Below, one piece after another: positions 33,935-61,333 of a stretch of 64,000 bases of DNA. The position numbers and the translations under genes were made by a program. The first letter of the stretch is position 1; every line of letters starts with the position of its first letter. The notes under the pieces were generated by a model, which saw only the letters and a list, made by a program, of their open reading frames with translations, did no database searches and was not told the origin of the DNA. The stretch is from assembly GCA_014305025.1 (NCBI GenBank), contig JACRTY010000005.1, forward strand, positions 1 through 64,000, read 5' to 3'. This DNA comes from Candidatus Nyctobacter psychrophilus (lineage in GTDB: Bacteria; Vulcanimicrobiota; Vulcanimicrobiia; Vulcanimicrobiales; Vulcanimicrobiaceae).

Positions 33935-33939
33935 CCGAA

Positions 33940-36889: not shown

Positions 36890-36890
36890 G

Positions 36891-37016: not shown

Positions 37017-37023
37017 TCACCGT

Positions 37024-37494
37024 CGCCGCGGCGTTGAGATCGACGACGAACCTCAGCCGGCCTTCGCACCCCTCTCGCCACGCGAAACGACGACCTTCGA
37101 CGTCTGGGGAACGGGCGTAACGACCGGTCCGCAACCGATCGCGCATTTCCGTTCTGAACTCGACCAGCAGCGCGTGCTCGCCGCCGAGCGGCTAACGGCG
37201 ATGCCGAACCATCTCGTCTGCAAGGTCGGCCGGTATGATCATCACCCGGCAGCGCGCCGGCACGGCCAAAGGTTTCGTCTTCCTGACACTCCAGGACGAA
37301 GCGGGCCTGGTCAACGTCATCGTCAACCCCCCATCTACGAACGCAACCGCCGCGTCATCCGAGTCTCGACCGCGCTGATTATCGAAGGCGTCCTGCAAAA
37401 GGATCAGGGTTGCATCGATCTGCTGGCCAAGCGTTTTTGGTTACTCGAAACGCATGAAACCCTCGACGGCATCCACGCCCGCAATTTTCGCTTA
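37024..37494 (+). pseudogene. dnaE2 3' fragment, copy B
   Basis: About 470 bases match dnaE2 30799-31267, the last 150 or so codons to within one codon of the end (IHARNFR). The frame is broken by small indels, for example near 37232 and 37330. With copy A it makes a partial tandem in which the 30977-31102 segment is present twice. Divergence is visible but modest. Confidence 0.9.
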
Positions 37495-37526: not shown

Positions 37527-38000
37527 CTAAGCATACGTTTTGCCGGGGGGAACCGCACGCGCCGGCATGGGCACCATGGTCGCGCCTGGAGGAACATCGC
37601 GATTGACGATCGCGCCTGCGGCAATCACGGCGCCTTTGCCAATCACGATTCCGCCTCGGTTATTACCCAAGATTATCGCGTAGGCGCCAATGACGCAATC
37701 GTCCTCGATTACGATCGGCGACGCGGACCGTTCTGACGTTTCAGCAGCGATTGTCACATGGTGAAAGATCTTCACACGACGCCCGATTCTGACGTTCGGG
37801 TGAATGGCGCAACCGAAACCAAAATGGACGAGTTCGAGATCGTCCTCAATTTCACACTGATAGCAAAGTATCGCTTTGTACACCAAGAAAGTGATTGTCT
37901 TGAGTAATACCGCTGCAGGCCTATTGCCGGAGTGGTATGCCTTGCTGCTCAGGTACCACAGGTGCTCGGCTGCTACCATGCGTTTGAGCCGCCTTAGCAC
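37527..38000 (-). CDS. Hexapeptide-repeat acyltransferase (CysE/serine acetyltransferase-like)
   Basis: A 157-residue left-handed beta-helix acyltransferase. An N-terminal helical part is followed by hexapeptide repeats: IHPNVRIGRRVKIFHHVTIA, PIVIEDDCVIGAYAIILGNN, GIVIGKGAVIAAGAIVNRDV, then PPGATMVPMPARAV. The His in FHHVTI is the usual catalytic position. It follows the carrier protein with a one-base overlap. In this setting it may move an acyl or glyceryl group onto a sugar rather than make O-acetylserine. Confidence 0.87.
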   Translation of the reverse strand: MLRRLKRMVAAEHLWYLSSKAYHSGNRPAAVLLKTITFLVYKAILCYQCEIEDDLELVHFGFGCAIHPNVRIGRRVKIFHHVTIAAETSERSASPIVIEDDCVIGAYAIILGNNRGGIVIGKGAVIAAGAIVNRDVPPGATMVPMPARAVPPGKTYA

Positions 38001-38254: not shown

Positions 38255-40075
38255 CTATATGTCGGCGCTGGCTTCGACGAACCAATCTGGAACAGCAATC
38301 GCAGCTGTCGTATCAAGCTCCCACGCGGTTTCGCCGCGCTTCACGAACCCTAACGCACCGTAAAAGTCGGCGGCCACCGCGTTCTTTGCAGTCGGGATGA
38401 ATTCGCCTACGAGCCTTCTTGCGCCGCGTTCCCTCGCATCGTCGGCGACCTTACTCAAGAAGGCCTGCTCTACGCCGCGTCCGATCACGCGGCAGCTCAG
38501 GAGATAGCTGTCGATCGTGCAAATCGCGCCGTCGTCGCGAGTCAAAGCGACCGCAACGAGGCCGGCTCGAGAAAACTTATCTTCCAGCTCGGCGTAATAC
38601 ACGCGCCATGACGGATCTGCCAACATCGCCGTGATATCGCTTTCCGAATAACGACGCGTGGTCAAATTGAACTGGTTCGTTTTCTGGGTAAGCTGCGCGA
38701 TGCGGGGGACGTGAAAGGCATCCCCTTTGTGCACCGCAATTTTAAGACCCAGTGATCGAAGGTAGTCGCCCATAGAGCCCGCCGATGTCCTTAGTTCTAT
38801 ACGCGCGGACTCGGCGCGATACAGTTCGCTACGCCGCCGATCTTCCTCGCTCAAGGTGAGCGTATCGAAAGAGTCGATACCTCGGATTATACCGGCGTAA
38901 CGACTGGGATCAGCTGGAAGCTCGACCGTCTCGACTTGCGGCAGCGCGTCGCGTACATATTCGCACTCGAAAGGATTGTCGTCAACGAACACGAGCGAGT
39001 CTAGCCCAATATTGAGCTCGGCCGCGATCTGCCGCAAGTTGCTAACTTTATCTTCCCAGTTGATGCGCATGGCCACGAAGTGTTCGGGGCGAAGAAGGCT
39101 ATCGGGATGCCTTTGAAAGACTTCGTACGCATCGGCGTGATTATTTTTCGAGTTCAGCGCCAGTAGGATGCCGCGATTGTAAAGGTCCAGAATGGCTGCC
39201 TGCATTTCGACAAAAGCGGACCCCGGATTTGTCGTCCCGAGTTTGATCCCTGACAATCCGTCTTCTCCAACGACGCCGCCCCAAAGCGTATTGTCGCAGT
39301 CAAGCACAAGGCACTTCTTGTTCTTGCCTTTCAGCGCTCGGGCCAATTTAACATATTCGCGGGCGATGTCCCGTTGAAAAGACGCTTTATATGGCGCACG
39401 GCCGACATGCCAATATCGATCATCGATCGCATTCTCATAGCCGACGCGAGAGACCAAGCGCTCCACATCGATGATGAAGGCTCCGCTGACTTGCGATACG
39501 ATTTCACGCAGACGCCTGTTCATAGCCCGTAACGTTTCCGTTTGGCCGCCCGACATTTGAGCATCCAATAGGCCATACGCGGGTAAGTGTATCATCTCAA
39601 AATTATGGACCGCTATGAGGGCGGTCGAACGATCGCGAATTGCCCGGATGAACGTCTCGATAGTTGTTAGGCTATTGTGAACGAGCGTAGCGAGATCGTG
39701 GGCTTTCAGAGAGGTAAATTGCTGCACTAAAGCCGGCGCTAGAGAATGAAGGCGTAGAGCGACGGCGATTATGTCTGGGCTCGCTGCGAAGAGCGTACTC
39801 TTCTTATCGAACACCACGTCCTGTCCGTTATCGAACCCCTCCATGTGCACGGATGCCCTAAGTCCGGCGCGCGCCGCCTCAACCACGATGTGAGGCTGGA
39901 TGGTCGGTTCCAGCGTTATGTTACGCAAGATCGCGAAGCGGACGAGCGGCCCATCATTAGAAACTGATGAGATTCGCTTGGCGGCCCCTATCAGTCGCGC
40001 GGGGCTATCATTGGCAGCTAGGTCGCGCAAAATATTTTGCACGGTCATCGTGTCGTCAGTTGCTTGAAGCGTCAT
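38255..40075 (-). CDS. FkbH-like HAD-IIIC/GNAT protein
   Basis: A 606-residue FkbH-type protein. An N-terminal SGNH-like region (IAVHNFEMIHLPAYGLLDAQ) precedes the HAD-IIIC domain (KCLVLDCDNTLWGGVVGEDG, LLALNSKNNHADAYEV, LVFVDDNPFECEYVRD) and a C-terminal GNAT-like region (YLLSCRVIGRGVEQAFL). FkbH proteins load D-glyceryl from 1,3-bisphosphoglycerate onto a carrier protein. The carrier and acyltransferase genes follow directly, giving a three-gene acylation unit. A degenerate fragment of this gene lies at 36.7 kb. Confidence 0.92.
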   Translation of the reverse strand: MTLQATDDTMTVQNILRDLAANDSPARLIGAAKRISSVSNDGPLVRFAILRNITLEPTIQPHIVVEAARAGLRASVHMEGFDNGQDVVFDKKSTLFAASPDIIAVALRLHSLAPALVQQFTSLKAHDLATLVHNSLTTIETFIRAIRDRSTALIAVHNFEMIHLPAYGLLDAQMSGGQTETLRAMNRRLREIVSQVSGAFIIDVERLVSRVGYENAIDDRYWHVGRAPYKASFQRDIAREYVKLARALKGKNKKCLVLDCDNTLWGGVVGEDGLSGIKLGTTNPGSAFVEMQAAILDLYNRGILLALNSKNNHADAYEVFQRHPDSLLRPEHFVAMRINWEDKVSNLRQIAAELNIGLDSLVFVDDNPFECEYVRDALPQVETVELPADPSRYAGIIRGIDSFDTLTLSEEDRRRSELYRAESARIELRTSAGSMGDYLRSLGLKIAVHKGDAFHVPRIAQLTQKTNQFNLTTRRYSESDITAMLADPSWRVYYAELEDKFSRAGLVAVALTRDDGAICTIDSYLLSCRVIGRGVEQAFLSKVADDARERGARRLVGEFIPTAKNAVAADFYGALGFVKRGETAWELDTTAAIAVPDWFVEASADI

Positions 40076-41127: not shown

Positions 41128-42114
41128 ATGTGGGGCACTGAAAACCAGAAAATATGCGACGTAGGTTTGCTTCGAGACAGATCAGACGTGGGTGACGAGG
41201 AAATCGACGGAAGGTACCGTTTTTCGGTCTGCATTTGTACGCGCAACAGACCTGACGATCTTACGGTCGCGCTCAGCTCAATCGCTCACTCCCGATATCC
41301 GGTGTGGCAGACGGTCGTTTCCGATGATAGTACCGACGATCACACGGCCACGCTGGTCACGCGCAACTATCCCGGAGTAACCTTTATCGAAGGGCCGCGT
41401 CGCGGCCTGAGTGCAAATCGAAATGCCGCCGCCGCGGCGGCCACAGGAACACACGTGGTCTTCATCGACGATGACGCCGCGCTGGGGCAAACGTATCTCG
41501 AAGAGATCGCGAAGCGATTCGATACAACGCCTTCTGCGCGACGAGAGAAGACCATCGTCTCCGGCATTGAACGGTTGCGCGGCAACCTCGTGTACCCAAA
41601 CGATATCAGCTTCGTCGGGTTTCAATCGAAGCGTTACGAACCCGGGCATCCGCTTCGTACATTTATCATCAATGCGACCGCATTTCCCATCGGGCTTCTC
41701 CGGCTACAGGGCTTCGATGAAAATCTCGTCTACGGATCGGACGAAGTCGACTTCGCGGTTCGTTCCGTCGCTTGCGGCTTTGAGATCGTGCTGGCACCCG
41801 CGGCCGTCAACGACCACTATAGTTCGGCTATACACCGCGAAGAATACGAATCGTTTTGTGCCGCCTCGCGGATGTACACGACCTTCAAACGATACTGGTA
41901 CATCGAACGCAAGCCGCTACACGCCATCTTGTACGCATTCGTCGGGCCGATTCACTTCATCGCTAGCGCGATGCGGGCCGGAAATCCTGCGGCTCTGAAG
42001 GGCCTCGTGCCAAGTATGCGCGTCGCGCTCGGGTACCTGAAGCGATATCGGTCCGCTAAGACCGACATGCCGGTGCTCAACACGCGACCTGGGGAACCGT
42101 CGAGAAGCCGCTGA
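41128..42114 (+). CDS. GT2-family glycosyltransferase
   Basis: A 328-residue GT-A enzyme: FSVCICTRNRPDDLTVALSS, TVVSDDSTDDHTATLV, GPRRGLSANRNAAAAAATGT, VVFIDDDAALGQTYLEEIA (DxD metal site), FDENLVYGSDEVDFAVRSVA, and a hydrophobic C-terminal stretch (LHAILYAFVGPIHFIASAMR) that may touch the membrane. It probably adds a sugar to a lipid-linked repeat unit. The ATG at 41128 has GTGAGG upstream; starting at MW or later would not change the domain. Confidence 0.9.
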   Translation: MWGTENQKICDVGLLRDRSDVGDEEIDGRYRFSVCICTRNRPDDLTVALSSIAHSRYPVWQTVVSDDSTDDHTATLVTRNYPGVTFIEGPRRGLSANRNAAAAAATGTHVVFIDDDAALGQTYLEEIAKRFDTTPSARREKTIVSGIERLRGNLVYPNDISFVGFQSKRYEPGHPLRTFIINATAFPIGLLRLQGFDENLVYGSDEVDFAVRSVACGFEIVLAPAAVNDHYSSAIHREEYESFCAASRMYTTFKRYWYIERKPLHAILYAFVGPIHFIASAMRAGNPAALKGLVPSMRVALGYLKRYRSAKTDMPVLNTRPGEPSRSR

Positions 42115-42414: not shown

Positions 42415-43215
42415 ATGACGATGGACCTCCTCGACGAACTCGAGGCGCGCTCGGTTGCGATCTTGCGCGAGGCGTATTTTCGTGTCTCGCCCCTCTGCAT
42501 GTTGTGGTCGATGGGCAAAGACAGCACCGCACTCTTGTGGTTGGCACGCAAGGCGTTTTTCGGCAGCGTCCCATTCCCGGTCGTCCTGCTCGATACCGGA
42601 ATGGAGCTACCGGAAGTCTACGAGTTCCGGGACGCAATCGCCCAAGAGTGGAACCTCGAGCTGCATAACGAGGACTGCCCTCCTGAGTCGGAGATCGACC
42701 CGACGTTACCGCCCGCCACGCGCGCTGCGGCCAGAAAAACGGCCGGACTGCGGGCGCTCGTCGAGCGCCACGGTTACCGTGGGGTAATCGCCGGTATTCG
42801 GCGCGACGAACAGGCCACGCGCGCAAAGGAGCGGGTCTTCAGTCCCCGCGCGGCAGACGGCTCGTGGGACGTCGTGCGGCAACCTCCCGAGCTTTGGGAC
42901 GTCTACCACACGGAGATTCCGGACGGGGCGCACCTGCGCATCCACCCGCTGCTCCATTGGACGGAAACCGACATCTGGCGCTACACGCAGCGTGAGAACA
43001 TCCCGATCGTGCCGCTCTATCTCGCGCGCAACGGTAAGCGCTACCGTTCGCTTGGCGAGAAGAACATCACGGTTCCCATCGACTCCGACGCGGCCACGAT
43101 CGACGAGATCATTGCCGAGCTCGTGTCGACGAAATCTCCCGAGCGCGCCGGCCGGATCATGGATCATGAAAGCGAAGACGCGTTCGAACGGCTCCGTACC
43201 GGAGGATACATGTAA
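42415..43215 (+). CDS. cysD: Sulfate adenylyltransferase subunit 2
   Basis: A 266-residue CysD, the ATP-pyrophosphatase subunit that makes adenylyl sulfate from ATP and sulfate. The PP-loop is [76 protein letters not shown] and [20 protein letters not shown] follow. The ATG at 42415 has GGAGA nine bases upstream. Its stop shares a base with the start of cysNC, so the two subunits are made together. Confidence 0.96.
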
Positions 43216-45077
43216 TGCCAAAGCCACAATTGCGGGTCGTGACGGTCGGGCACGTCGATCACGGAAAATCAACCCTGATCGGACGGCTGCTTCACGATAC
43301 GGGAAACCTTCTCGACGGTAAAGCCGACGAGTTGCGCGCGATCAGTGAACGGCGCGGCGTTCCGTTCGAATGGTCGTTCGTACTCGATGCACTGCAAAGT
43401 GAACGAGACCAAGCGATTACGATCGACACGACCCGAATCTGGATGCACCTCGGCGAGCGCGAAATCGTCCTGATTGACGCGCCGGGACATGAAGAGTTCC
43501 TACGCAACATGGTGACCGGCGCCTCCGACGCCGACGCAGCGCTGCTTGTCGTCGACGCTGCCGAAGGTGTCAGCGAGCAGACGCGGCGCCATGCGTTGCT
43601 TCTCGAACTCATCGGTATCCGGCAAGTCGTTGTCGCGATCAACAAGATGGATCGGGTGGGGCACAAGCGCAACGCGTATGAGGCTGTGCGTGCAGAACTG
43701 GAACCGTTGCTGGCCCGCATCGGTGTTGCTCCGACTGCGGTGGTGCCGATCGCCGCGCGCGATGGCGACAACATCGCGGCACAATCGAAAGCCATGCCCT
43801 GGTATACCGGTCCGACCATCGTCGAGACGTTGGCGGCGATGGAGCCGATCCGGCGACACGATGGCGCAGAGTTGCGTATGGCCGTGCAAGGCGTCGTCCG
43901 CCGCGGCACTGACAGAATCGTTGTCGGACGCATCGAAGCCGGGTCGCTCGGCGTCGGGGACGAGGTCGTCCTTTCGCCCGGCGCTCGCATCGCCCGCGTC
44001 AAGTCCCTCGAATCGTGGCCGGGCCCTGCGAAAGGCCGGGCGCAGGCCGGGGAATCGGTCGGCTTCACGCTCGATCTGCCGCTGTTCATCGAACGGGGCG
44101 ATATCGTCAGCAATGCCGCCGCCATGCCTGGGTCGACGACGCTGTTCCGAGCTCGGCTTTTGTGGCTCGGGCGGCGTCCACTCGAAGTGCGCGATCGCTT
44201 GCGCATGCGTATCGGCACCCGCCTCGCACACGTCCAGGTCGAAGCCCTGGAGCGTGGAGTCGACATCACCACGCTCGAGCCCCACGACGCTACGAACGCT
44301 CAACGGAACGACGTGGCCGAGGTCGTTTTCCGCAGCCGAGAATCTCTCGCGCTCGATACGATCGACGAGCATCCGGGACTCGCCCGTCTCATCCTCATCG
44401 ATGGTCTCGAGATCGTTGCCGGAGGGACGATCCTAGCGAGTTTTCCAAGCACCGATCCGAGCCACATCGTCCCAGTGGGCCATCTCCTCAATCGAGAAGC
44501 GCGCGCCGCCCGCAACGGGCATTGCGGCGCCGTCATTTGGATGACGGGGCTTCCCGCTGCGGGTAAATCAACGATTGCGATGCAGCTTGAAAGGCGCCTA
44601 CACGAACGCGGCGTGCAAAGCTACGTGCTCGACGGTGACAACCTGCGCACCGGGCTCTGCCGCGATCTGGGGTTCTCCGATCGCGACCGCAGCGAAAACA
44701 TCCGGCGCGTTGGCGAGGTTGCGACCCTGTTCGGGGACGCGGGCCAGGTCGCGATCGCGGCTTTCATCTCGCCCAGCCGCGCCGATCGTGACGTCGCTCG
44801 ACGTTCGGCCGGTGATCTCTTCCACGAAGTGTTCGTCAAAGCCGACGTTTCCGTCTGCGAGGCACGCGATCCCAAGGGCCACTACGCCCAAGCGCGCGCC
44901 GGCGAAATCCCCGGTTTTACGGGAATCACCGGCGAATACGAAGAGCCGCTGGCGCCGAATCTCGTCCTCGATACCGAACACTTGTCGCTGGACGATGCCG
45001 TATCGACGCTCTTCCACTATGTCATGGAGCAGATCATCGCCGTGCCCTCGCCCGCCCGATCATTTGCAGTCCATTGA
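43215..45077 (+). CDS. cysNC: Sulfate adenylyltransferase subunit 1 / adenylylsulfate kinase fusion
   Basis: A 620-residue bifunctional protein. The N-terminal CysN GTPase has [20 protein letters not shown] (G1), [20 protein letters not shown] (G3), NKMD (G4) and EF-Tu-like beta barrels. The C-terminal CysC kinase has [55 protein letters not shown]. With CysD it makes PAPS, the sulfate donor for sulfotransferases. No PAPS reductase or sulfite reductase is nearby. With the two sulfotransferases beside it, this argues for sulfation rather than cysteine synthesis. Confidence 0.96.
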
Positions 45078-45096
45078 GACGGAGCTCGGAATCTCC

Positions 45097-45987
45097 ATGA
45101 CGCCCGGCCCTGACTATGCCGGAGAGAACCTGCTGTTTGTAGCCGGCTGTCCGCGCAGCGGCACGACGTGGGTTCAGCGATTGCTGTCGTGCCATCCCGC
45201 GATCCATACCGGTCAAGAAACTCACATCTTCAACCATTATCTGATGCCCGTCGAAACGGCATGGCGCCGAAGCAAAGCCGGCAGCCCTCGTGGAGTTGGA
45301 CTGGCGGGTTACTTCAGCGACGAGCAGTTTCACCAAGTCTTGAAGTCATTTCTCGTTTCGCTTCTCTCTCCGCTCGTGGCGCCGCTTGCACCAGGAGAGT
45401 TTTTTCTCGAGAAGACGCCGTCCAACGCGCTTTTCATGCCGGAGATTACGGGCTTCTTGCCGGCCGCCCGCATCATCCACGTGCTGCGGGATCCGCGGGA
45501 CGTCGTGGCCTCGTTGCTTGCAGCCTCGCGCTCATGGGGTCGGCGTTGGGCCCCTCGTAACGCCCGCCGAGCCATCACGACTTGGAAAGAACATGTCGGC
45601 GGAGTGCGCGAAGCGAGCCGCAATTTGCCCCCATCGCAGTTCATGGAGATCCGCTACGAAGACCTGCATGCCGATCCGGAGCGCGTCCTGCGCAGCTGCA
45701 TCACGTTCCTCGGTCTCGAGTGGTCCGACGAGCAATTGAGGTCGGCTATCAGCGCGAACGAGCCGGAAAAGGCGGTGACGGAGAACGGCGGGACGCCGAT
45801 CCCGATCGGCGGCGAATTGGGCGCGCGGTTCGGCGGCATGGCCAAAGAACCGAAAGGCTTCATTCGTAAGGCAAAAGTGGGGAGCTGGAAGCAGGACCTC
45901 AACCCCGCCGACAAGTTTTGGATATGGATGCTCGCTCGCAAACAGATGACGGCGAACGGATATCCATGGCGATCTGCGCCGAAATGA
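45097..45987 (+). CDS. PAPS-dependent sulfotransferase
   Basis: A 296-residue sulfotransferase. The 5'-phosphosulfate loop is FVAGCPRSGTTWVQRLLSCH and the 3'-phosphate-binding block is ARIIHVLRDPRDVVASLLAA, with SRSWGRRWAP next to it; MEIRYEDLHADPERVLRSCI and a C-terminal GKVGSW-like segment (KAKVGSWKQDLNPAD) complete the set. It would transfer sulfate from PAPS to a hydroxyl, here most likely on a sugar. It lies 19 bases after cysNC, with GGAG in front of the ATG at 45097, so donor synthesis and use are in one operon. Confidence 0.93.
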   Translation: MTPGPDYAGENLLFVAGCPRSGTTWVQRLLSCHPAIHTGQETHIFNHYLMPVETAWRRSKAGSPRGVGLAGYFSDEQFHQVLKSFLVSLLSPLVAPLAPGEFFLEKTPSNALFMPEITGFLPAARIIHVLRDPRDVVASLLAASRSWGRRWAPRNARRAITTWKEHVGGVREASRNLPPSQFMEIRYEDLHADPERVLRSCITFLGLEWSDEQLRSAISANEPEKAVTENGGTPIPIGGELGARFGGMAKEPKGFIRKAKVGSWKQDLNPADKFWIWMLARKQMTANGYPWRSAPK

Positions 45988-46064
45988 CCCCACTTCGGCG
46001 ACGATGATCCGGTGGACCGCGCAGAGGTTTCGCGGCCGCGTTTTTCTTCTAAATGAACTCGTAG

Positions 46065-47441
46065 ATGGCTAATCGGAGTCGCACCGACTGGTTGCGGTGG
46101 CGTCTACGCTGGGTTTTTGAAGCGCGCTCCGCCGGGGCAGCCGTCATGCATACCTTGGCAGCGCAGTTTGGCGTACTGGGCGTCAATCTCGCGACGGGGC
46201 TCATCATTGCCCGTGAGCTCGCGCCAAAAGGCCGGGGCGAACAGGCGGCGATGACGCTCTGGCCGGCGGTGCTAGCCAGCCTTTTATCGTTCGGGTTGCC
46301 CGTCGCGCTTCGCTACTACGCTGCGCGCGACCGGGCACGAAGTTCGGAACTACTCGGCGTTGCGCTCATCTACGCCGCGCTTCTCGGTTTTGTGGCCACG
46401 TTCGCCGGCATCGTCTTTGTTCCGCATTGGCTATCGCACTACAACGTTCACGTCATCCGGTTTACGCAATGGCTGATGCTTCTCTCGCCGCCGTTCTTGG
46501 TCGCCCGCATATTGCAGTCGTTCCTCGAAGCGCGCGGCGACTTCCGGCAATCGAACTTCATTCTGTACATGCCACCCGCCGGGACGCTCGTGACGCTCCT
46601 CGCGCTCATCGGCTTCCATCGGCTCAACCCGTACACGAGCTCCCTCGCGTATGTGATTCCGACGGTCTTGCTAACCGTCTGGCGCTTGATCGCGCTGCGG
46701 CGCTTCATTCGTTTCCGATTGCCGGACTTCGCCGAAGCAACGCGGCGCCTTTTCACGTACGGCTTCGGCGCATACGGGATCAACATACTGAACACGTTCG
46801 CGGCGCAGATCGATCAAGCGCTCGTCGTCAAGTTCTTATCGCCGGCCGACCTAGGAGCGTATACGGTTGCCCTGACCATCGGGCGGTTGCCTTCGACCAT
46901 CGCGCAGGCTCTGGTTGTCGTGCTACTGCCGCGCGCTACGGCGCTCGAGTTCGATGCTGCGCTCACTCTCGTCGCTCGCGCGGCGCGCGTGAACTTGGTC
47001 GGGACAGCCGTGGCGTCGACGGTGCTGGCACTCGTCGTGCCAACCGCCTTGCCATTTCTGTATGGCCACGCCTTCAGCATCTCGGTGGGGGTCGCGGAGA
47101 TTCTCCTCTTACAGGTCGTTATTAGCTCGACGACGAGCGTGCTCGCCCAATCATTTCTAGCCACCGGTCGGCCAGTGTTCCTAACGATTCTTCAAGCCTT
47201 GGGGTTGGGCACCGCGGTTCCGTTCCTGCTGATGTTGATCCCGCGCTTCGGGTTGATAGGAGCGGCACTTGCGTTGCTCGCTTCAACACTGGTGCGCTTG
47301 GCCTTCATGATGGTGAGCTATCCGCTCTTCCTCAAGCGCCCCCCGCCGAGCCTCGTCCTGCGAACCGATGACATCCGGTTCGTGCGCGAAAGTCTGCGTG
47401 GCGGGCGAAGGGCGCCGCTTCCGCAAGAGGCAGAAATCTAG
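46065..47441 (+). CDS. Polysaccharide flippase (Wzx/MOP superfamily)
   Basis: A 458-residue membrane protein with about 12 helices. It begins HTLAAQFGVLGVNLATGLII, then LWPAVLASLLSFGLPVALRY, and in the middle YGFGAYGINILNTFAAQIDQ followed by LSPADLGAYTVALTIGRLPS, the pattern of MOP lipid-linked oligosaccharide flippases. It likely moves undecaprenyl-linked repeat units across the inner membrane. It follows the sulfotransferase by 77 bases and faces the second sulfotransferase gene tail to tail. Confidence 0.92.
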   Translation: MANRSRTDWLRWRLRWVFEARSAGAAVMHTLAAQFGVLGVNLATGLIIARELAPKGRGEQAAMTLWPAVLASLLSFGLPVALRYYAARDRARSSELLGVALIYAALLGFVATFAGIVFVPHWLSHYNVHVIRFTQWLMLLSPPFLVARILQSFLEARGDFRQSNFILYMPPAGTLVTLLALIGFHRLNPYTSSLAYVIPTVLLTVWRLIALRRFIRFRLPDFAEATRRLFTYGFGAYGINILNTFAAQIDQALVVKFLSPADLGAYTVALTIGRLPSTIAQALVVVLLPRATALEFDAALTLVARAARVNLVGTAVASTVLALVVPTALPFLYGHAFSISVGVAEILLLQVVISSTTSVLAQSFLATGRPVFLTILQALGLGTAVPFLLMLIPRFGLIGAALALLASTLVRLAFMMVSYPLFLKRPPPSLVLRTDDIRFVRESLRGGRRAPLPQEAEI

Positions 47442-47449
47442 CGGCGAGC

Positions 47450-48274
47450 TTACCGAAAAAGATAGCCCGTCTCCGCGCTGCCGAACTCTTCGTCGATTTC
47501 ATGAATGCGCGGCACGCGCTCATACGTCTCCGCCGAATTTACTCTCGTCTTAGTTGGGTTGAGTATCCGCAAGGCATTGCGATGCAACGACGACCTGCGA
47601 AACGGACGCCCCGTGATAAACGCAATTACTTCCCCTAAGGCAAGGAGCCGCTGCTCCACCGATCCGTCTCCAAAGACATCCTCGTACCACAAGGTCATGT
47701 AGGGCAGCCCGCTTTCATCGAGCCGACGCTTTACGCTGACCGATGCGGCATGCTCATCGGCCAGCTCTTGCCGAATTGCCGCCTTGTCGAGCGGCTCGTA
47801 ACGATGGTCCAAGACTTTTCCGCGGTTATTGCGCAGTTGCCAGACACCAGTCTGTTGCCCCATGAGCAGGGACACCGCACGCTGCAAAGCGTTTCTTCGA
47901 TTCAAGAGCACGACCCGGCTCGCTGCCGATGTCAAAAGGTGGTCGTCAATCGAGTGTTCTTGAAATACCGAGCGATCGGATCGTACGACGTGTTTGAAGC
48001 CGTTGTAACGATGCCACAGCCGGTCTACGTCACGTTGCAGCGACGGTAAATCGGGGATTTTTCCCTTCAAGCGGTGTGCGTTGAACGGCTCGCCGGGCGC
48101 AGTGCATATCCCGGCGTAACAGTCTAGGGCTTGGCGTAGAGACGTGCTGCCGGTCCGAGCGCATGCGTAGATGAGAAAGTGGTAACTTCTGTCGCGACGA
48201 TAGCTTCGGTACCCTTCGTCGATGCGGCGCAGGGCTTGTCTTCCATAACGGAGTGCTCGGCGTGGTGTGATCAA
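47450..48274 (-). CDS. Stf0-like sulfotransferase
   Basis: A 274-residue sulfotransferase of a different subfamily from the one at 45.1 kb: FLIYACARTGSTSLRQALDC (5' phosphosulfate loop), YNGFKHVVRSDRSVFQ, VVLLNRRNALQRAVSLLMGQ (3' phosphate-binding Arg/Ser region) and YMTLWYEDVFGDGSVEQRLL. Stf0-type enzymes sulfate carbohydrate hydroxyls, as in mycobacterial sulfolipid. The TTG at 48274 follows AGAGGTG at ideal spacing. The frame is open further upstream, but that part is not family-like. Confidence 0.88.
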   Translation of the reverse strand: MITPRRALRYGRQALRRIDEGYRSYRRDRSYHFLIYACARTGSTSLRQALDCYAGICTAPGEPFNAHRLKGKIPDLPSLQRDVDRLWHRYNGFKHVVRSDRSVFQEHSIDDHLLTSAASRVVLLNRRNALQRAVSLLMGQQTGVWQLRNNRGKVLDHRYEPLDKAAIRQELADEHAASVSVKRRLDESGLPYMTLWYEDVFGDGSVEQRLLALGEVIAFITGRPFRRSSLHRNALRILNPTKTRVNSAETYERVPRIHEIDEEFGSAETGYLFR

Positions 48275-48610
48275 GCTCACCTCTTTTGTGCCTGAATGAG
48301 ATAGCGTACGGTGCCCGGAGAACCGGCTCCTCGACGTAATCGCCTTCATCCAAGTAGTCGGCGGCCCCACTCTGACTACTCCTGAGATCGAGACGGCGCT
48401 CCGCAGGAAGTAAAGGCCGACGCATCAGCGGACGAAGGTACATAGTGCTCAGTCACAGCCCGTACTGCTCCCCGCCACCGAGCCGGGGATACAGGTCACA
48501 CCGTTTCTTCGCGATGCTGGGGGCCCTAATCCCCAGCGCGCGGGCCGCCGAGACCATCATCAGGCTTCCCCTCATTGCCGAAAAAGGCGCCATAGTCAGG
48601 GAGAATTTGA
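48275..48610. other. Divergent intergenic region, sulfotransferase / glycosidase 1
   Basis: 336 bases between divergent genes, expected to hold both promoters. No gene is supported. GGGAGA seven bases before the ATG at 48611 is the ribosome site for the glycosidase. Confidence 0.5.
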
Positions 48611-50785
48611 ATGGCTCGGTGTTCTAAGACCAAGTTGCTGACCTATTTTGCTGCAGGTGTGGCAACGCTGTTGAGCGCGTGTTCCGGAAGTCCGCAGGCC
48701 GGTGCACCGCTTCTTCCGACGTCAGGCTCGAACGAAATGCCCGCGCAGGCGCAGGTTGCCGGCTCGCCCGCATCGCGTTCAGCGACGTCCGGTCAACACG
48801 TCGCCGTCTCGGCGACGACGCCTCCCAGCTATACGAGTGCGGTGCTGTCGGCCAATCCCCTCGCCTACTATCCGCTTGACGATGGCAGCACCACGCTGAC
48901 GGACGCGGCGGCGCATCACATCAACGGGGTTTATGGAAGCCTTGACTCTGCCAGCGGTCCAGGCCTGAGGCTCAACGCGACTGCATCAGAATCGTTACCT
49001 GGGGGCAGCAAATACGGCTACGATAGAAGCAAGTTCGATCAGGTCCCACAAAACGCGCAATTGGAGCCTGCAAGTACGCTCAGTGTCGAAGCATGGCTTC
49101 GAGTTGGCGGTGCCAACACGTCGGGAACAAACGTCTCGGTCGTCGCTTATGGAGGACCTAACTCCGGCGGTGAGCCGTACCTCTTAGCGCTCACGCCGAG
49201 CAACCAAGTCCAGTGGAGTATACTTGGTGCCGGCGCCACGGCAGGTACGGTGGCTGGGAAGACAGCGCTATCTCCCAACGTGCCGCATCACGTTGTCGCC
49301 ACGTACGACGGCGCCACGCTCCAAATTTACGTAGATGGAAATCTTGACGGCAGCGGAGCCGCTCGTGGACCGATAACCTATGGCCGGCAGCGGTTGCATC
49401 CGGGGCTCTCCATTGGCGGTGCTCTTAACAGCCGCACCGCAACGTTGGCCGGTGACCTGTCGGACGTTGCAATTTATGGAAGCACGCTGCCCGCATCTAC
49501 GATCCTAACGCACTATCAACTAGGGACTACGGCCGGGACGCCTCAACCCACGCCTTCGCCGACACCTCAGTCGACACTCCCCCCGGGCGTGACATTGACG
49601 AGTGAGACGCCAAAGACCGCGTTCGCCTTCAGCGACTCATTTGGTGCCAACTCGGTTTTCGGTGACTACCAAGCGTACGGTTCGCAGTTTTCTACGCTTG
49701 GGCCAATGCTAGATTCGGGGTCGATCCGGCACCTCCGGGATGGTAATGCGGCAGTTCTTCCCGGCATCTATTACCTCCCGATGTTTCAAAATCTTTGCCA
49801 GAACGGGATTCGTCACTCCGTGGCCTTCCCGATAAAGACTACGACCGCTTCTGGGATTATTGCGGCGATCAACCAGTACAGTCCGCAATGCATCGATTTC
49901 GTCGAACCGCAGAACGAGATGGATGCGCTCGCCGGGTACGGAAAGAAAGATTCTAACTGGCCCAAGGAGATCGTCGCCGAGCAGACCCTGCTGTACAATA
50001 CGATGAAGAGCGTGCCCGCATTCGCTAACATCACGGTGCTCGGCCCCGCTCTATCCAATCCCGCAAATTACAGTCTACTCGGGAATCTCGACGCGATCTC
50101 GGACGCCGGAAACTCGCACAGCGCCATGTGTGACGCTAATCCGGGATCGACGTTCTACGGTACACTGGGTCACCGAGTCAGCGTCGTAAAGGCTTCATGG
50201 CCGACAAAGCCGGTCTGGGTGACCGAGACCGACTACAACGACAATTCGTCCAACGGCGGCCATTGTGCTGTACCGGATGACGTCATGGCGAAGTACGTCG
50301 CGCGAACGCAAACGGAGCGATTCAATCTCGGCGAACCAAGAATCTACTGGTTTTCGCTCAAAGACAGGCCCCAGGTTATAGCAGGCGACGAGGGACTGCT
50401 CCGGTCGAATAATTCTCCGAAGCCCGCGTACATAGAGATGACGAACCTAATGCAGGTCGTCGGTGATGCGACTAGCAGTACCCCACAGCCGATCAATTGG
50501 GCCCTGGTTGGGAGCGCAACCATTCATCACACGCTGCTCCAAAAAAGCGACGGCACGTACGAGTTATTGCTGTGGAACGAGGTCCCATCTTGGGACACAA
50601 GAAGGCACGTTGAGATGCCGGTCTCGTCGCAAAGCGCGACCGTGTATCTGCAGCAGACCATCGGTACGGCAACATACTATACGTTCAACGCTTCAAATCA
50701 GATGGTGCCAATGTCAGTCAATCAACGTGGCGGAGGCTTCACGATCCCCGTCAGCGACAACATCTCCGTACTCGATTTCAAGTAA
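48611..50785 (+). CDS. LamG-containing glycosidase-like lipoprotein (paralogue 1)
   Basis: A 724-residue exported protein. It has a lipoprotein signal (YFAAGVATLLSACSGS, lipobox LLSAC) and a Ser/Thr/Pro linker. A LamG/concanavalin-like domain follows (residues about 75-305; AYYPLDDGSTTLTDAAAHHI, HHVVATYDGATLQIYVDGNL), then a Pro/Thr spacer and a TIM-barrel region from about 325. The barrel has clan GH-A-style acids: Glu436 in FVEPQNEMDAL and Glu539 in VWVTETDYN. A C-terminal beta domain ends VSDNISVLDFK. It probably cleaves a glycan; I cannot assign a GH family. It is the only one of the three paralogues with the LamG part. Confidence 0.8.
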   Translation: MARCSKTKLLTYFAAGVATLLSACSGSPQAGAPLLPTSGSNEMPAQAQVAGSPASRSATSGQHVAVSATTPPSYTSAVLSANPLAYYPLDDGSTTLTDAAAHHINGVYGSLDSASGPGLRLNATASESLPGGSKYGYDRSKFDQVPQNAQLEPASTLSVEAWLRVGGANTSGTNVSVVAYGGPNSGGEPYLLALTPSNQVQWSILGAGATAGTVAGKTALSPNVPHHVVATYDGATLQIYVDGNLDGSGAARGPITYGRQRLHPGLSIGGALNSRTATLAGDLSDVAIYGSTLPASTILTHYQLGTTAGTPQPTPSPTPQSTLPPGVTLTSETPKTAFAFSDSFGANSVFGDYQAYGSQFSTLGPMLDSGSIRHLRDGNAAVLPGIYYLPMFQNLCQNGIRHSVAFPIKTTTASGIIAAINQYSPQCIDFVEPQNEMDALAGYGKKDSNWPKEIVAEQTLLYNTMKSVPAFANITVLGPALSNPANYSLLGNLDAISDAGNSHSAMCDANPGSTFYGTLGHRVSVVKASWPTKPVWVTETDYNDNSSNGGHCAVPDDVMAKYVARTQTERFNLGEPRIYWFSLKDRPQVIAGDEGLLRSNNSPKPAYIEMTNLMQVVGDATSSTPQPINWALVGSATIHHTLLQKSDGTYELLLWNEVPSWDTRRHVEMPVSSQSATVYLQQTIGTATYYTFNASNQMVPMSVNQRGGGFTIPVSDNISVLDFK
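50054..50603 (+). repeat. 550-bp tract identical to 51868-52417
   Basis: Every base from 50054 to 50603 equals the base 1814 positions downstream in the second glycosidase gene. The sequences on both sides are similar but visibly diverged, with silent and coding changes. The tract covers the catalytic nucleophile region. Confidence 0.95.
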
Positions 50786-50806
50786 ATCGAACAAGGGGTT
50801 TTGCAT

Positions 50807-50844
50807 CCGCAAGGGTCGGTACTCGCCGGCCCTTGCGGTTTTTT
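50807..50844 (+). terminator. Intrinsic terminator after glycosidase 1
   Basis: CCGCAAGGG pairs perfectly with CCCTTGCGG across a 14-base loop and is followed by six T. It lies 22 bases after the stop. Between here and the next start (51238) I see no other supported gene. Confidence 0.92.
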
Positions 50845-51237
50845 GCGCGGTAGGGTTGCACTTTTGCACCGCTAGAGCGCTTAGACGTGCGCAGCGAAAC
50901 ACGTGTTGGACAGCGCGCCCTTTCTAGCTACAGCACGTTCGCTCATGTAAGCGGTCTAGCGGCCGCCCGGCTCACCGTTGCAATCCTATTTGGGATCGTG
51001 TAGCCTGCTATGCGCCGAAGGCGGACCCGCCCGGGGCACTAGAGGAATCGCCAAAAAATACTAGCCTGTGGAGTAGTTGGAATGGCGAGCGCGTTCACGC
51101 GTGGTCATCGCCTACTTCACCCTAGCGGAGCTGACCGAACATGTTGGATGTTCCACATGCGGCTTTGCTTTTGCCCAAAAGCCCCTAAGATGCAGACGTC
51201 GTTGTCTGTGATCGACACTAGATGGATTGAGGTTCTC

Positions 51238-52599
51238 ATGAGAGCTCAAGTCGAAGCCGCCGTACTACAGCGTTGTCGACGCCCCGTCATTGCTGCCGCT
51301 GTCCTCGCGTTAACGTTCGCAGGACTGCCGCGAACGTCGGCCGCTCAGCAGCGATCCCCACTTTGGGGGGGTGCGGCCATCCAACAAACGTTGCCGCAAG
51401 GTGTTAAGTTCCGCACCGAGACGCCGAAAAGCGCGTTCGCCTTCAGCGACTCATACGGTGCCAACTCGGTTTTCGGGGACTACCAAGCGTACGGGTCGCA
51501 GTTTTCTACACTTGGGCCAATGCTAAATTCGGGGTCGATCCGGCACCTGCGGGATGGTAATGCAGCAGTGCTCCCCGGCATCTATTACCTCCCGATGTTC
51601 AAAAGTCTGTGCAATCACGGGACACGCCATTCGGTCGTTTTTCCCATCAAGACTACGACCGCTGCTTCGATTATTTCGGGGATCAACCAGTACGGGGCGC
51701 AATGCATCGATTTCGTCGAACCGCAGAACGAGATGGACGCGCTCGCAGGGTATGGGAGTAAAGATCCTAACTGGCCGAAGAAGATCATTGCCGAGCAGAC
51801 CCTGCTATACCATACGATGAAGAGCGTGCCCGCGTTCTCTAACATCACCGTGCTCGGCCCTGCTCTTTCCAATCCCGCAAATTACAGTCTACTCGGGAAT
51901 CTCGACGCGATCTCGGACGCCGGAAACTCGCACAGCGCCATGTGTGACGCTAATCCGGGATCGACGTTCTACGGTACACTGGGTCACCGAGTCAGCGTCG
52001 TAAAGGCTTCATGGCCGACAAAGCCGGTCTGGGTGACCGAGACCGACTACAACGACAATTCGTCCAACGGCGGCCATTGTGCTGTACCGGATGACGTCAT
52101 GGCGAAGTACGTCGCGCGAACGCAAACGGAGCGATTCAATCTCGGCGAACCAAGAATCTACTGGTTTTCGCTCAAAGACAGGCCCCAGGTTATAGCAGGC
52201 GACGAGGGACTGCTCCGGTCGAATAATTCTCCGAAGCCCGCGTACATAGAGATGACGAACCTAATGCAGGTCGTCGGTGATGCGACTAGCAGTACCCCAC
52301 AGCCGATCAATTGGGCCCTGGTTGGGAGCGCAACCATTCATCACACGCTGCTCCAAAAAAGCGACGGCACGTACGAGTTATTGCTGTGGAACGAGGTCCC
52401 ATCTTGGGACACAAGAACGCACGTTAAGATATCAGTCCCAGTACAAAGCGCGACCGTCCATCTTCCGCCGAGTATTGGCACGGCTACGTACTACACGTTC
52501 AACACCTCGTATCAGATGGTGCGAACGCCGGTCACTCAACGCGGAAGCAGCTTCACGATTCCCGTCAGCGACAACATCTCCGTTCTCGACTTTAAGTAG
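51238..52599 (+). CDS. Secreted glycosidase-like protein (paralogue 2)
   Basis: A 453-residue paralogue of the gene at 48.6 kb without the LamG domain. It has a Sec signal (VIAAAVLALTFAGLPRTSAA), then the same barrel: FRTETPKSAFAFSDSYGANS, Glu165 in FVEPQNEMDAL, Glu268 in VWVTETDYN, and the end VSDNISVLDFK. I chose the ATG at 51238 because GAGG precedes it and the signal peptide follows; the frame from 51082 adds 52 unlikely residues. A 550-bp part is identical in DNA to paralogue 1. Confidence 0.82.
   Translation: MRAQVEAAVLQRCRRPVIAAAVLALTFAGLPRTSAAQQRSPLWGGAAIQQTLPQGVKFRTETPKSAFAFSDSYGANSVFGDYQAYGSQFSTLGPMLNSGSIRHLRDGNAAVLPGIYYLPMFKSLCNHGTRHSVVFPIKTTTAASIISGINQYGAQCIDFVEPQNEMDALAGYGSKDPNWPKKIIAEQTLLYHTMKSVPAFSNITVLGPALSNPANYSLLGNLDAISDAGNSHSAMCDANPGSTFYGTLGHRVSVVKASWPTKPVWVTETDYNDNSSNGGHCAVPDDVMAKYVARTQTERFNLGEPRIYWFSLKDRPQVIAGDEGLLRSNNSPKPAYIEMTNLMQVVGDATSSTPQPINWALVGSATIHHTLLQKSDGTYELLLWNEVPSWDTRTHVKISVPVQSATVHLPPSIGTATYYTFNTSYQMVRTPVTQRGSSFTIPVSDNISVLDFK
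51868..52417 (+). repeat. 550-bp tract identical to 50054-50603
   Basis: Partner of the tract in paralogue 1. The borders are abrupt: the base before it (T against A) and the base after it (C against G) differ, and substitutions are frequent beyond. Confidence 0.95.
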
Positions 52600-52625
52600 A
52601 TCGAACGGCAGCCCTCTAGGTCGTG

Positions 52626-52660
52626 CCAAAGCCGCCGGGCGTTCCGCTCGGCGGCTTTGG
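52626..52660 (+). terminator. Hairpin terminator after glycosidase 2
   Basis: CCAAAGCCGCCG pairs with CGGCGGCTTTGG over 12 perfect pairs with an 11-base loop, 26 bases after the stop. The T-tract is poor on the plus strand (TCAAG), so it may work together with Rho or mainly protect the mRNA end. Confidence 0.65.
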
Positions 52661-52866
52661 TCAAGCTGGCGCTCGGCGACGTTTTTTCATTGTACTCTCA
52701 CGCAATCAACGTAACTCGTAGCTTATCATGAATCGTTGTATTGACTCAAGTCTGTCACGGGGTGCTGGCGTCCTCAGCACGAACACAATATGCTCGTGCC
52801 TTCCTGTAAACGGAGCTGTGGTCGAGTTAAACGGCTATTTTAATGAGTAATGAAAGAAAGGTTGAT

Positions 52867-54204
52867 ATGGTCGGACTGAAGCGCTGGACTATTCCAGCCA
52901 CGGCTACACTGGGGATTGCACTTACGGCCTTGAGCTTGGCGCGAATGTCGGCGGCTGACACATTTCCGGGCCAGGGTTTCCCGCCGCCTTCGGCTCGAGA
53001 TCCGATATTAGCCGTCCATAGCTCCGACTCGTTTGTCGACTCGTGGGGAGTCGATACTCACTTTAGTTTTCGCAATACTCCGTATCAAACCGCCCAAAGT
53101 CAGGAACTGCAGTCTCTCCGCGCAATTGGCGTCCGTCACATACGGGATGGCTCCCCCAATCCACGACCGGAACACTTGCAGATATACAATGACCTGTGTC
53201 GCGACGGCATTCACCACAGCGCAGCGTTTAACGTCGGTGTCTCCGCATCAAAAATGGCCGCCACTCTCAATCTTTTCGGGCCTTCATGCATCGATTTCGT
53301 CGAGCCTCAGAACGAATACGATAACAGACGCAATCCTGATTGGGCAACCGACATTTTCGACGAACAAACGACGCTGTACCACCTTATTAAATCAACTCCC
53401 GCCTTCCGTAATATCGTCGTCCTCGGCCCGGCATTGTCTAGCATCGCGCGGTTCGGACTCCTCAAAAATCTCGATAACATCGAAGATGCGGCTAATCTGC
53501 ATGATGCGTCGTGCGATGGCAATCCGGGCACGCATTACTACGGTTCACTCGCCAGGCACATCAGCAGGGTTCGTCTAGCGACAAAGATCCGTCCGATCTG
53601 GGTGACCGAAGCCGCGTACGGCGACGCGACGCTTGACAGTGGCTTGCCCCAGGCGAACCATTGCGGCCTGCCGGATTCAGTGATTGCGCGTTACGTCCCG
53701 CGCAGCCAAGCGGAACGCTTCAACCTCGGCGAACAGCGTATCTACTGGTATGAATTTTCCGATCAGCCGCGCGATAAAACTGGGGCCGGAGCCGAGGGAT
53801 TCGTCGACCAGAACGGTATGCCGAAACCGCAGTACTTCGCGGTGCAATCCCTCATCAAGCTATTGGCCGACCCCGGCCACCCATTTACGCCGCGTCAGCC
53901 GACGCTGAATGTTTCTTCTGGAAGCGCCGCTGTGCATACGCTACTGCTCCAGAAACATGACGGCTCGTATTACCTTATGCTCTGGCAAGAGGTTCCGTCC
54001 TGGGATGTCAAGGGGCACGTCGTGTTGTCGCCCCCGCCGGTCGACGTTCGGTTAAGCATGTCGCCGACAGTGAACTCGGCGGACTATTACCAGTACGACT
54101 CTGGATGGCGGTTCGTGCAGAAACCGGTGCAAGTGCACAATGGTATCGTTACGGTTCCGATCACGGACAGCATTTCGGTCTTAAGGTTTACGCCCGCGGG
54201 CTAG
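52867..54204 (+). CDS. Secreted glycosidase-like protein (paralogue 3, diverged)
   Basis: A 445-residue third member of the family. Its signal peptide is ATATLGIALTALSLARMSAA. The barrel is clearly homologous but diverged: LQSLRAIGVRHIRDGSPNPR, Glu150 in FVEPQNEYDN, Glu248 in IWVTEAAYGD, YWYEFSDQPRD and the end TDSISVLRFTPAG. The ATG at 52867 has AAAGG seven bases upstream; one at 52843 has no ribosome site. Its 3' end overlaps the GT2 gene on the other strand by 17 bases. Confidence 0.8.
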   Translation: MVGLKRWTIPATATLGIALTALSLARMSAADTFPGQGFPPPSARDPILAVHSSDSFVDSWGVDTHFSFRNTPYQTAQSQELQSLRAIGVRHIRDGSPNPRPEHLQIYNDLCRDGIHHSAAFNVGVSASKMAATLNLFGPSCIDFVEPQNEYDNRRNPDWATDIFDEQTTLYHLIKSTPAFRNIVVLGPALSSIARFGLLKNLDNIEDAANLHDASCDGNPGTHYYGSLARHISRVRLATKIRPIWVTEAAYGDATLDSGLPQANHCGLPDSVIARYVPRSQAERFNLGEQRIYWYEFSDQPRDKTGAGAEGFVDQNGMPKPQYFAVQSLIKLLADPGHPFTPRQPTLNVSSGSAAVHTLLLQKHDGSYYLMLWQEVPSWDVKGHVVLSPPPVDVRLSMSPTVNSADYYQYDSGWRFVQKPVQVHNGIVTVPITDSISVLRFTPAG

Positions 54205-55153
54205 TCGTTGCCTGATTCGATAAATCGCGCCAGGCGTCCACGAATCCCATCATGGTGGCCACCGTCTTCGAGCCCGTGACGCCCCGGCTTGCGTAGGGCA
54301 GGAACCTGGCATACTGCAGAAGTCCGGGCGCCGCACTCGTTCCGATGCCAAGCGCCCATAATCCATACACAAATCGTTCCGGCAGAGTGAGATGTTGCAT
54401 CCGAATGAGCGACTCGTTGTAGGCCATATTTCTCTGAGCTAAGGGATTGTACGAGTTCCGCTGATCTTCGTCGAAACGGGTTGCGACGTAGTGCTCGACC
54501 AGTATATTCGGATCGTAGAGCAACTTCCAGCCTTGGAGCCGAAGCTGCAAACCGAGAGAGATCTCCCAGTGGACTTGCGCACCGGTGCCGCGAAGACGCT
54601 CATCGAAGCGAATCGCACGAACGAGCGATGTGCGGTACGAACCATTGACGCCCTTCAAGACGTCGACGTAACGGGGCGGTCCAGCACCTAAGTGATGGAG
54701 CCCCGTTACGCGACCAAATTTCGGAACAATGCCGACGACAGCACGCTCACCAGTTACGAGATGGTCCCCGTGGTGGACGTTGTCGCGGCCTCCGACGCCT
54801 GCCACCTCCGGATGCTCAGCAAATGCCTGAGCGATGCGTGCGCACCAATCGGGGTGCGGTGCTGCATCGTCATCCGTGATTGCAACGACCTCTCCGGCAG
54901 CTATCTCGATGCCGGCGTTGAGTGCCTGAACCTGTCCACTGACCGTTACACTTGCTACGGACACCGGGACGGGGGTGGCCGTCAAGCCCTTGAGATAGCT
55001 CCACGTTTCGCTATCCTCGGGCCTGGCCACAACGACGATTTCCAAGGGCTTACGATCCTGTCCGAAGAGCGCCTCCATACACCGACGCAGATCGTTGACC
55101 CGGCGATATGTTGGAACGAGAGCGCTGACGGTCGGAAGCGCGAAGGAAGGCAT
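54188..55153 (-). CDS. GT2-family glycosyltransferase
   Basis: A 321-residue GT-A enzyme: SALVPTYRRVNDLRRCMEAL, IVVVARPEDSETW, GQVQALNAGIEIAAGEVVAI, TDDDAAPHPDWCARIA (DxD), VNGSYRTSLVRAIRFDERLR and WEISLGLQLRLQGWKLLYDP. Its C terminus contains a hydrophobic stretch (ERFVYGLWALGIGTSAAPGL). It is convergent with paralogue 3. It differs from the GT2 at 41.1 kb and likely adds another sugar of the same polymer. Confidence 0.9.
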   Translation of the reverse strand: MPSFALPTVSALVPTYRRVNDLRRCMEALFGQDRKPLEIVVVARPEDSETWSYLKGLTATPVPVSVASVTVSGQVQALNAGIEIAAGEVVAITDDDAAPHPDWCARIAQAFAEHPEVAGVGGRDNVHHGDHLVTGERAVVGIVPKFGRVTGLHHLGAGPPRYVDVLKGVNGSYRTSLVRAIRFDERLRGTGAQVHWEISLGLQLRLQGWKLLYDPNILVEHYVATRFDEDQRNSYNPLAQRNMAYNESLIRMQHLTLPERFVYGLWALGIGTSAAPGLLQYARFLPYASRGVTGSKTVATMMGFVDAWRDLSNQATTSPRA

Positions 55154-55457: not shown

Positions 55458-56432
55458 GTGCTAAACGTCGTTACCGGCGGTGCCGGCTTCCTAGGGAGTC
55501 ACCTGGTCGACGCCCTGTTGAGCGCCGGCGAGGAGGTTCTCATCATCGATGACCTGTCGACCGGGACTTTGCGGAATGTCGAATCGGCCATCCAAAGTGG
55601 CAAAGCGGTTTTCCTGTATCTGGACGTTGCTCGTCCGCTCGAGGTTCTGCGCGGTCCAATCATGGAAGCCGTGCGGGATAGAGTGATCGGCCGCATATTT
55701 CATCTCGCGTCTCCCGCAAGTCCGGAAGCATATGGCGCACACCCGTGGGAAACCCTCGCCGTCAACGCGGTCGGAACGATGTCGCTAATTGAGCTCGCGC
55801 TGGAGCACTCGGCACGCTTCGTGTATTCATCCACGTCTGAAATCTACGGTGACCCTCTTGTGCATCCGCAACCGGAGACGTATTTCGGCAACGTCGATCC
55901 GATCGGCCCTCGATCGTGCTACGACGAGGGCAAGCGTTTCGGTGAGGCCGCCGTCGCCGCGGCGGTCCGTACACGAGGTCTCGATGCGCGCATCGTGCGT
56001 TTTTTCAACTGTTACGGCCCGCGCATGGAGATCGGCGACGGACGCCTCATTCCGGCGTTGATGCAGGCCACACTGGAGGGCCGACCCCTCCCGATTCAAG
56101 GCACGGGCAAGCAGACTCGTTCCATGACGTACGTCGACGATGCGATCGAGTTGTTGATCGGGGTCGTCAGCCTTGAGATGGCGACACTGCAACCCGTCAA
56201 TATCGGCAACGATGACGAACGTAGCGTCGAGGAGATTGCCAAAGCGGTGGCTCTCGTCAGCAGCAGTCCCCTCGAGTTTCAGCACCTCCCGGCGCGCGAA
56301 AACGATCCCCAACGTCGCCGCCCTGATCTGGCGGTCGCCCGCAGGCTGGGTTGGTCGCCGACGACGACACTTGAAGTCGGCCTGCGCAAGACGCTGGAGT
56401 GGTTCGCCGGGGAGCGGATGCAGTTCGCATGA
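55458..56432 (+). CDS. UDP-glucuronate decarboxylase-like NAD-dependent SDR enzyme
   Basis: A 324-residue extended SDR. The NAD motif is VVTGGAGFLGSHLVDALLSA, then IIDDLSTG, HLASPASPEAYGAHPWETLA, FVYSSTSEIYGDPLVHPQPE, GNVDPIGPRSCYDEGKRFGE (catalytic Tyr-x3-Lys in the form YDEGK) and NCYGPRMEIGDGRLIPALMQ. The SPEAY and GPRSCYDEGKR blocks are those of UDP-xylose synthase, which makes UDP-xylose from UDP-glucuronate. This suggests xylose or a derivative in the polymer. The start is GTG at 55458. Confidence 0.88.
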   Translation: MLNVVTGGAGFLGSHLVDALLSAGEEVLIIDDLSTGTLRNVESAIQSGKAVFLYLDVARPLEVLRGPIMEAVRDRVIGRIFHLASPASPEAYGAHPWETLAVNAVGTMSLIELALEHSARFVYSSTSEIYGDPLVHPQPETYFGNVDPIGPRSCYDEGKRFGEAAVAAAVRTRGLDARIVRFFNCYGPRMEIGDGRLIPALMQATLEGRPLPIQGTGKQTRSMTYVDDAIELLIGVVSLEMATLQPVNIGNDDERSVEEIAKAVALVSSSPLEFQHLPARENDPQRRRPDLAVARRLGWSPTTTLEVGLRKTLEWFAGERMQFA

Positions 56433-61215: not shown

Positions 61216-61333
61216 GTCAGTACCGCGCCACCACACGAGGGCTATCGGCGCAATCTACAGAAATTCCTCGGCACCACGGCGTCACGACGAATCCGCTTCG
61301 GTGATGCTTCATCCCAGGAGTACTAAGCTTCCG

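Follow-up and report, generated by a model that had tools for sequence, protein, structure and literature searches.

Most accounts of sulfated polysaccharides come from algae, animals and cyanobacteria, and from a small number of other bacteria. Among the closest described systems, the xss cluster of Synechocystis PCC 6803 makes synechan, whose sulfated nature was shown chemically (PMC8205485). It is a Wzx/Wzy exopolysaccharide (EPS) cluster with eight glycosyltransferases and two sulfotransferases of distinct subfamilies; the text of this eLife paper names no PAPS-synthesis genes, and states that bacterial sulfated polysaccharides are made exclusively by cyanobacteria (PMC8205485). The nodP2Q2 surface-polysaccharide cluster of Sinorhizobium meliloti (SMb212xx) carries three sulfotransferases, and a sulfated polysaccharide has been proposed as its product (PMC5498481). 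The nodPQ-dependent sulfated surface polysaccharides of Mesorhizobium loti are mentioned in the same paper through a citation (PMC5498481).

The locus described here lies in a 64,000-nucleotide stretch (the window) and in the adjoining part of the same contig (C46), in the draft genome of an uncultured bacterium of the family Vulcanimicrobiaceae. Its phylum, Vulcanimicrobiota in the present NCBI taxonomy and formerly Eremiobacterota, has been met chiefly in soil and other habitats on land, and a search of open-licence papers under the former name turned up none that deals with its sulfation. Like the S. meliloti cluster, the locus has CysD/CysNC-type PAPS synthesis beside several sulfotransferases, glycosyltransferases and Wzx-type export (PMC5498481), and like xss it is a Wzx/Wzy EPS cluster (PMC8205485). 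It differs from synechan in that its product is predicted from the genes, and from the rhizobial nodPQ clusters by the phylum, by the set of sulfotransferases and by the genome, which has no separate assimilatory pathway such as rhizobia possess. Given the rhizobial nodPQ and cyanobacterial synechan precedents, the locus is of a known kind, in a phylum for which no report came up; the unusual part is the apparent family-level link of sulfate activation to sulfotransferases. We propose, with a probability of about 0.77, that the cluster is a Wzx/Wzy-type EPS locus with its own sulfate activation, the PAPS being used to sulfate the repeat unit.

The cysD gene (42415..43215, + strand) encodes the small subunit of sulfate adenylyltransferase (NodP-like; NCBIfam CysD 314 bits, cut-off 195 bits; PP-loop SMGKDS). 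It is followed head to tail, with zero gap (nucleotide 43215 is common to both), by cysNC (43215..45077, +), which encodes an ATP-sulfurylase GTPase fused to an APS kinase (NodQ-like; TIGR02034 339.8 bits, cut-off for CysN 336.1 bits; PF01583 203 bits). Both open reading frames are intact and contiguous in the NodPQ manner, with their catalytic motifs kept; the cysNC translation has intact GTPase and APS-kinase motifs, including GLPAAGKS. The G+C content of the two genes is 63%, native-like. A sulfotransferase gene is linked to the pair (ST1, about 20 bp 3') and CysH is not, the genome having yielded neither CysH nor SIR. These features suggest that cysD-cysNC is a dedicated NodPQ-type PAPS module, PAPS production being predicted from the genes. 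APS synthesis by CysD/CysN and PAPS synthesis by APS kinase are the established chemistry of these families: the CysD and CysN parts would convert sulfate and ATP to APS, which the fused kinase would convert to PAPS.

ST1 (45097..45987, +) is an intact open reading frame encoding a TPST-like PF13469/PF00685 sulfotransferase (PF13469 132 bits, curated cut-off 27 bits; PF00685 83 bits). Its PAPS-binding motifs, CPRSGTTW (5'-PSB) and RDPRDVVAS (3'-PB), are intact, and its closest solved relatives are protein-tyrosine sulfotransferases (TPST; E 2.4e-16). In the alignment with TPST, the Glu of GQET in ST1 matches the second Glu of GEET, the catalytic base of those enzymes; score, both motifs and the TPST-like Glu together are those of a PAPS-dependent PF13469 sulfotransferase. 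In a profile search of the genome, ST1 was the sole PF13469/PF00685 gene. Since this single gene lies directly downstream of cysNC, and both genes of a second sulfotransferase type lie within 25 kb of it, the adjacency of ST1 and cysNC is not a matter of chance.

The first gene of this second type, copy 1 (47450..48370, - strand; the true start may be at about 48274 or later), is convergent with the flippase gene and 8 bp from its stop. Copy 2 lies just outside the window (C46:67332-68159) and is 52% identical to copy 1 in the alignment. Copy 1 scored 21.8 bits against PF09037 (Stf0), just under the cut-off of 22, so that this family name was dropped for it; copy 2 had no Pfam match, and a single-sequence search of solved structures with copy 1 gave none. 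A profile built from six sequences (both copies and four distant relatives; the PF09037 member L105 was excluded) found 9vki, 'LPS sulfotransferase NodH', with E 1.5e-22 over profile positions 4-215 of 246, a relation that covers most of the protein. A single-sequence structure prediction of copy 1 (pLDDT 33) was discarded and redone with seven homologues, giving a model with mean pLDDT 74.5 and pTM 0.73. Its best PDB matches, and its only ones below E 0.001, were chains D, A and C of 1tex (Stf0 of Mycobacterium smegmatis; E 2.3e-4, modest TM 0.36-0.49). Likeness to the NodH/Stf0 type (9vki, 1tex) thus consists of a P-loop RTGS motif, the Glu of an E-x-F motif and a related predicted fold, and the difference from the type proper lies in the Pfam results. 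Because of the sub-cut-off score, the 9vki profile match and the 1tex fold, we call both proteins NodH/Stf0-like and not Pfam Stf0 members. Glu94 of copy 1 shares an alignment column with the E-x-F-N Glu of a true Stf0-family relative, so a catalytic base is probably kept. The sequence-only reading had counted two sulfotransferases, and both were borne out; the total is three, the additional one being copy 2 just beyond the window. Relatives of the NodH/Stf0-like proteins were absent from the 117 other genomes of the phylum that were searched and from the plasmids and viral contigs searched; distant ones were present in 5 of 385 genomes sampled from the class of one alphaproteobacterial genome.

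The surroundings of these genes form an EPS locus. An intact gene for a Wzx-like flippase (46065..47441, +; PF13440 31.8 bits, 458 aa) starts 78 bp after ST1. The order cysD, cysNC, sulfotransferase, Wzx-like flippase, Stf0-like gene had been read correctly from the sequence, coordinates included; the first four are on the + strand and the last is convergent. Upstream of cysD are genes for a GT2 glycosyltransferase (41128..42114, +; PF00535 71.5 bits), an FkbH-like protein of the HAD-IIIC type that is a possible decoration enzyme (38255..40075, -; TIGR01686 311 bits) and an EpsC/CysE-like hexapeptide acetyltransferase (37527..38000, -; Hexapep, with the EpsC model under its cut-off). Relatives of the FkbH-like protein were also seen in loci L039, L185 and L186. 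Downstream are a second GT2 (54188..55153, -; PF13641/PF00535) and three GT4 glycosyltransferases (57869..58852, -, PF13692/PF00534; 59017..60159, -, PF00534 98.7 bits; 60160..61236, -, PF13692 70 bits). Five of the six glycosyltransferases claimed earlier are therefore within the window, and the sixth only begins at its edge. An asparagine-synthase-type amidotransferase (61334..63220, +; PF00733/PF13537) is also inside the cluster.

The UDP-xylose-synthase-like enzyme noted before (55458..56432, +) proved to be a UDP-glucuronate decarboxylase homologue (phmmer E 1.4e-78 to structures of UDP-glucuronate decarboxylase 1, versus 6.2e-40 for the best 4-epimerase). The adjoining PF04932 protein (56399..57934, +; 49.8 bits) had been called an O-antigen ligase; it could be one, and is more likely a Wzy-like polymerase, because the Wzx-like protein and the rest of the set make a Wzx/Wzy system, Wzx and Wzy being identified here through broad families. 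Beyond the window (L137, C46:60001-80000), the cluster reaches C46:73383 and includes the sixth glycosyltransferase, two Acyl_transf_3 proteins, copy 2, a CpsD-type ATPase (weak match), Wzz, the UDP-glucose dehydrogenase Ugd, an initiating transferase (Bac_transf) and a Wza-like Poly_export protein. PF02397, GT2/GT4, PF13440, PF04932, PF02706 and PF02563 were all found over cut-off, as in Wzx/Wzy loci. The presence of both Ugd and a UDP-glucuronate decarboxylase in the cluster makes UDP-xylose or UDP-glucuronate a likely precursor.

Between copy 1 and the second GT2 gene, three tandem genes (48611..54204, +) encode proteins with a common core that has no Pfam match; they are possible polymer-acting enzymes, and LamG (PF13385) was found on the first only. 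Motifs of the 'WVTE' type in this core are suggestive of GH39/PslG-like hydrolases. Two of the three have a common 300-nt block with 87% identity.

The polymer, its synthesis and export, the acceptor sugar and the position of sulfation are inferred from these genes. ST1 and the two NodH/Stf0-like enzymes would sulfate sugars of a lipid-linked repeat unit at the cytoplasmic face; the sulfated unit would then be flipped by Wzx and polymerised by the Wzy-like protein, with Wzz and the Wza-like protein setting length and export. Ugd and the UDP-glucuronate decarboxylase would lead to a polymer containing glucuronate or xylose, which the two acyltransferases and the FkbH-like protein may decorate further.

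The sequence-only reading had noted the absence of APS/PAPS and sulfite reductases from the window, and this extends to the whole genome (3.22 Mb, 93% complete draft). Whole-genome profile searches found CysD as the only PF01507 protein, hence no CysH-type reductase, and neither NIR_SIR (sulfite/nitrite reductase) nor Sat; of 14 control genomes, 14, 11 and 5 were positive for PF01507, NIR_SIR and Sat, respectively. A cell that uses PAPS is expected to need a PAP phosphatase; a CysQ-type enzyme (PF00459) was looked for in the genome and not found. TSUP permeases (PF01925) adjoin cysDNC in ten relative loci, which suggested one as the sulfate importer of the cluster; the candidate was rejected, as the three TSUP genes of the source genome all lie outside the cluster.

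Among 73 genomes of the family, CysD was found in 40, CysH in 16, Sat in 10 and a PF13469/PF00685 protein in 37. CysD or Sat was present in 34 of the 37 sulfotransferase-positive genomes and in 14 of the 36 negative ones (Fisher p 1.5e-6, uncorrected for phylogeny). With one genome per genus, the figures were 16/16 versus 9/22 (p 1e-4, uncorrected for ancestry, with four genomes lacking a listed genus omitted); these association tests disregard genome incompleteness. CysH and sulfotransferases showed no association (p 1.0). Among 37 family members tested for both CysH and NIR_SIR, 12 of the 21 with CysD had neither, and 10 of these 12 had sulfotransferases. In eight genomes (G014, G016 and G020, and G081, G083, G084, G086 and G089 of a sister family), Sat takes the place of CysDN and is no more than 1 kb from a sulfotransferase; an APS-kinase match adjoined Sat in all four such loci examined, the order in G014 being sulfotransferase, Sat, APS kinase. 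At the level of the family, activated sulfate seems to be linked more closely with sulfotransferases than with cysteine synthesis, by way of two unrelated ATP sulfurylases. In the sister family, G083 (C16:239768-268862) and G086 (C52:67305-145601) have about ten PF13469 sulfotransferases each, several of them in arrays next to Sat and APS kinase.

The sequence-only reading had suggested looking for a conserved order cysD-cysNC-sulfotransferase-wzx in relatives. The pair cysD-cysNC was contiguous in 40 of 40 loci from 39 relatives, and nothing more of the order was kept: cysD-cysNC-sulfotransferase-wzx occurred in the source genome only. Pfam-called sulfotransferases lay within 10 kb of cysDNC in G071, G025 and, weakly, G052, and in three Geomonas genomes (another phylum) a PF13469-type match came directly after cysD. 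Nine further relative loci carry near cysDNC a P-loop family, 'HIGTHKTGTTSLQ', that is sulfotransferase-like by motif; it was left out of the sulfotransferase counts because Pfam gave nothing for it, its PDB match was not significant (E 0.25) and it did not match the NodH/Stf0 profile. The pattern named beforehand as contrary to a role in sulfation, cysH beside cysDNC, does occur: cysH lay within 10 kb in 5 of the 40 loci (G007, G008, G018, G045 and G070), and also near cysDNC in Afipia/Xanthobacteraceae and other Alphaproteobacteria. G007 is among the closest relatives of the source CysNC. As cysH adjoins cysDNC in some genomes, the pair is not specific to sulfation and has both fates in different genomes.

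We give an even chance to a broader view, that in Vulcanimicrobiaceae sulfate activation has been largely freed from cysteine synthesis and kept for surface-glycan sulfation, through CysD-CysNC or the non-homologous Sat with APS kinase. If this is true, sulfated surface polymers would be a common trait of Vulcanimicrobiota. With the coherent gene set and the family-wide link, the idea of sulfated EPS beyond marine habitats can be put to a direct test. They also caution against taking cysD/cysNC in such genomes as a sign of cysteine synthesis.

The target of sulfation leaves most room for another explanation. PAPS could serve to sulfate a lipid, a protein or a small molecule, with the EPS genes as mere neighbours, since sulfotransferases of these families also act on such substrates: Stf0 sulfates trehalose, TPST tyrosine and NodH the Nod factor. 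The relation of ST1 to protein-tyrosine sulfotransferases and the resemblance of the second type to NodH and Stf0 (entry 1tex contains trehalose) fit this explanation, as do two large NRPS-like genes directly after the EPS cluster (C46:74376-79948; L137:14376-19948). However, the EPS locus encloses all three sulfotransferase genes, with ST1 flanked by cysNC and the flippase gene and copy 2 beside Wzz-type genes. Cyanobacteria and rhizobia, too, have sulfotransferases in clusters for surface polysaccharides (PMC8205485, PMC5498481). We therefore regard a non-EPS target as unlikely. The polysaccharide target claimed earlier has gained a complete Wzx/Wzy EPS locus around the sulfotransferases, and the target itself is still predicted from this context.

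Ordinary assimilation for cysteine is less probable again, and we consider it quite improbable. At 93% completeness, cysH or a sulfite reductase could have been missed, and the relatives with cysH beside cysDNC show that the pair can serve this pathway; however, the same two functions were absent from the 12 CysD-positive family members above, sulfotransferases go with the makers of APS and not with CysH, and the neighbour of cysNC is a sulfotransferase gene. The absence of CysH, NIR_SIR and Sat and the family-wide association uphold the earlier proposal that PAPS is for sulfation rather than cysteine. It is very improbable that the cluster is a decayed, non-functional island acquired horizontally. 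Parts of it have a G+C content of 54-57% versus 64% upstream, the tail of dnaE2 is duplicated at its left flank, and the NodH/Stf0-like genes are rare, as the search of the phylum showed; against decay, the genes for EPS, PAPS and the sulfotransferases have complete open reading frames that retain their catalytic motifs, and cysD and cysNC have the native-like composition given above. The EPS locus with its own sulfate activation is thus the reading that we retain.

The left flank of the EPS island looks rearranged. The 3' end of a dnaE2-like gene (30800-31265) is repeated about 6.2 kb downstream (36891-37490) with 71-91% identity, and a short fragment apparently derived from fkbH (ORF 36760-37146) lies beside the duplicated tail. 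Between dnaE2 and the island (32216-36034), small open reading frames resemble, by eye, remnants of nucleotidyltransferase/PIN-domain toxin-antitoxin genes.
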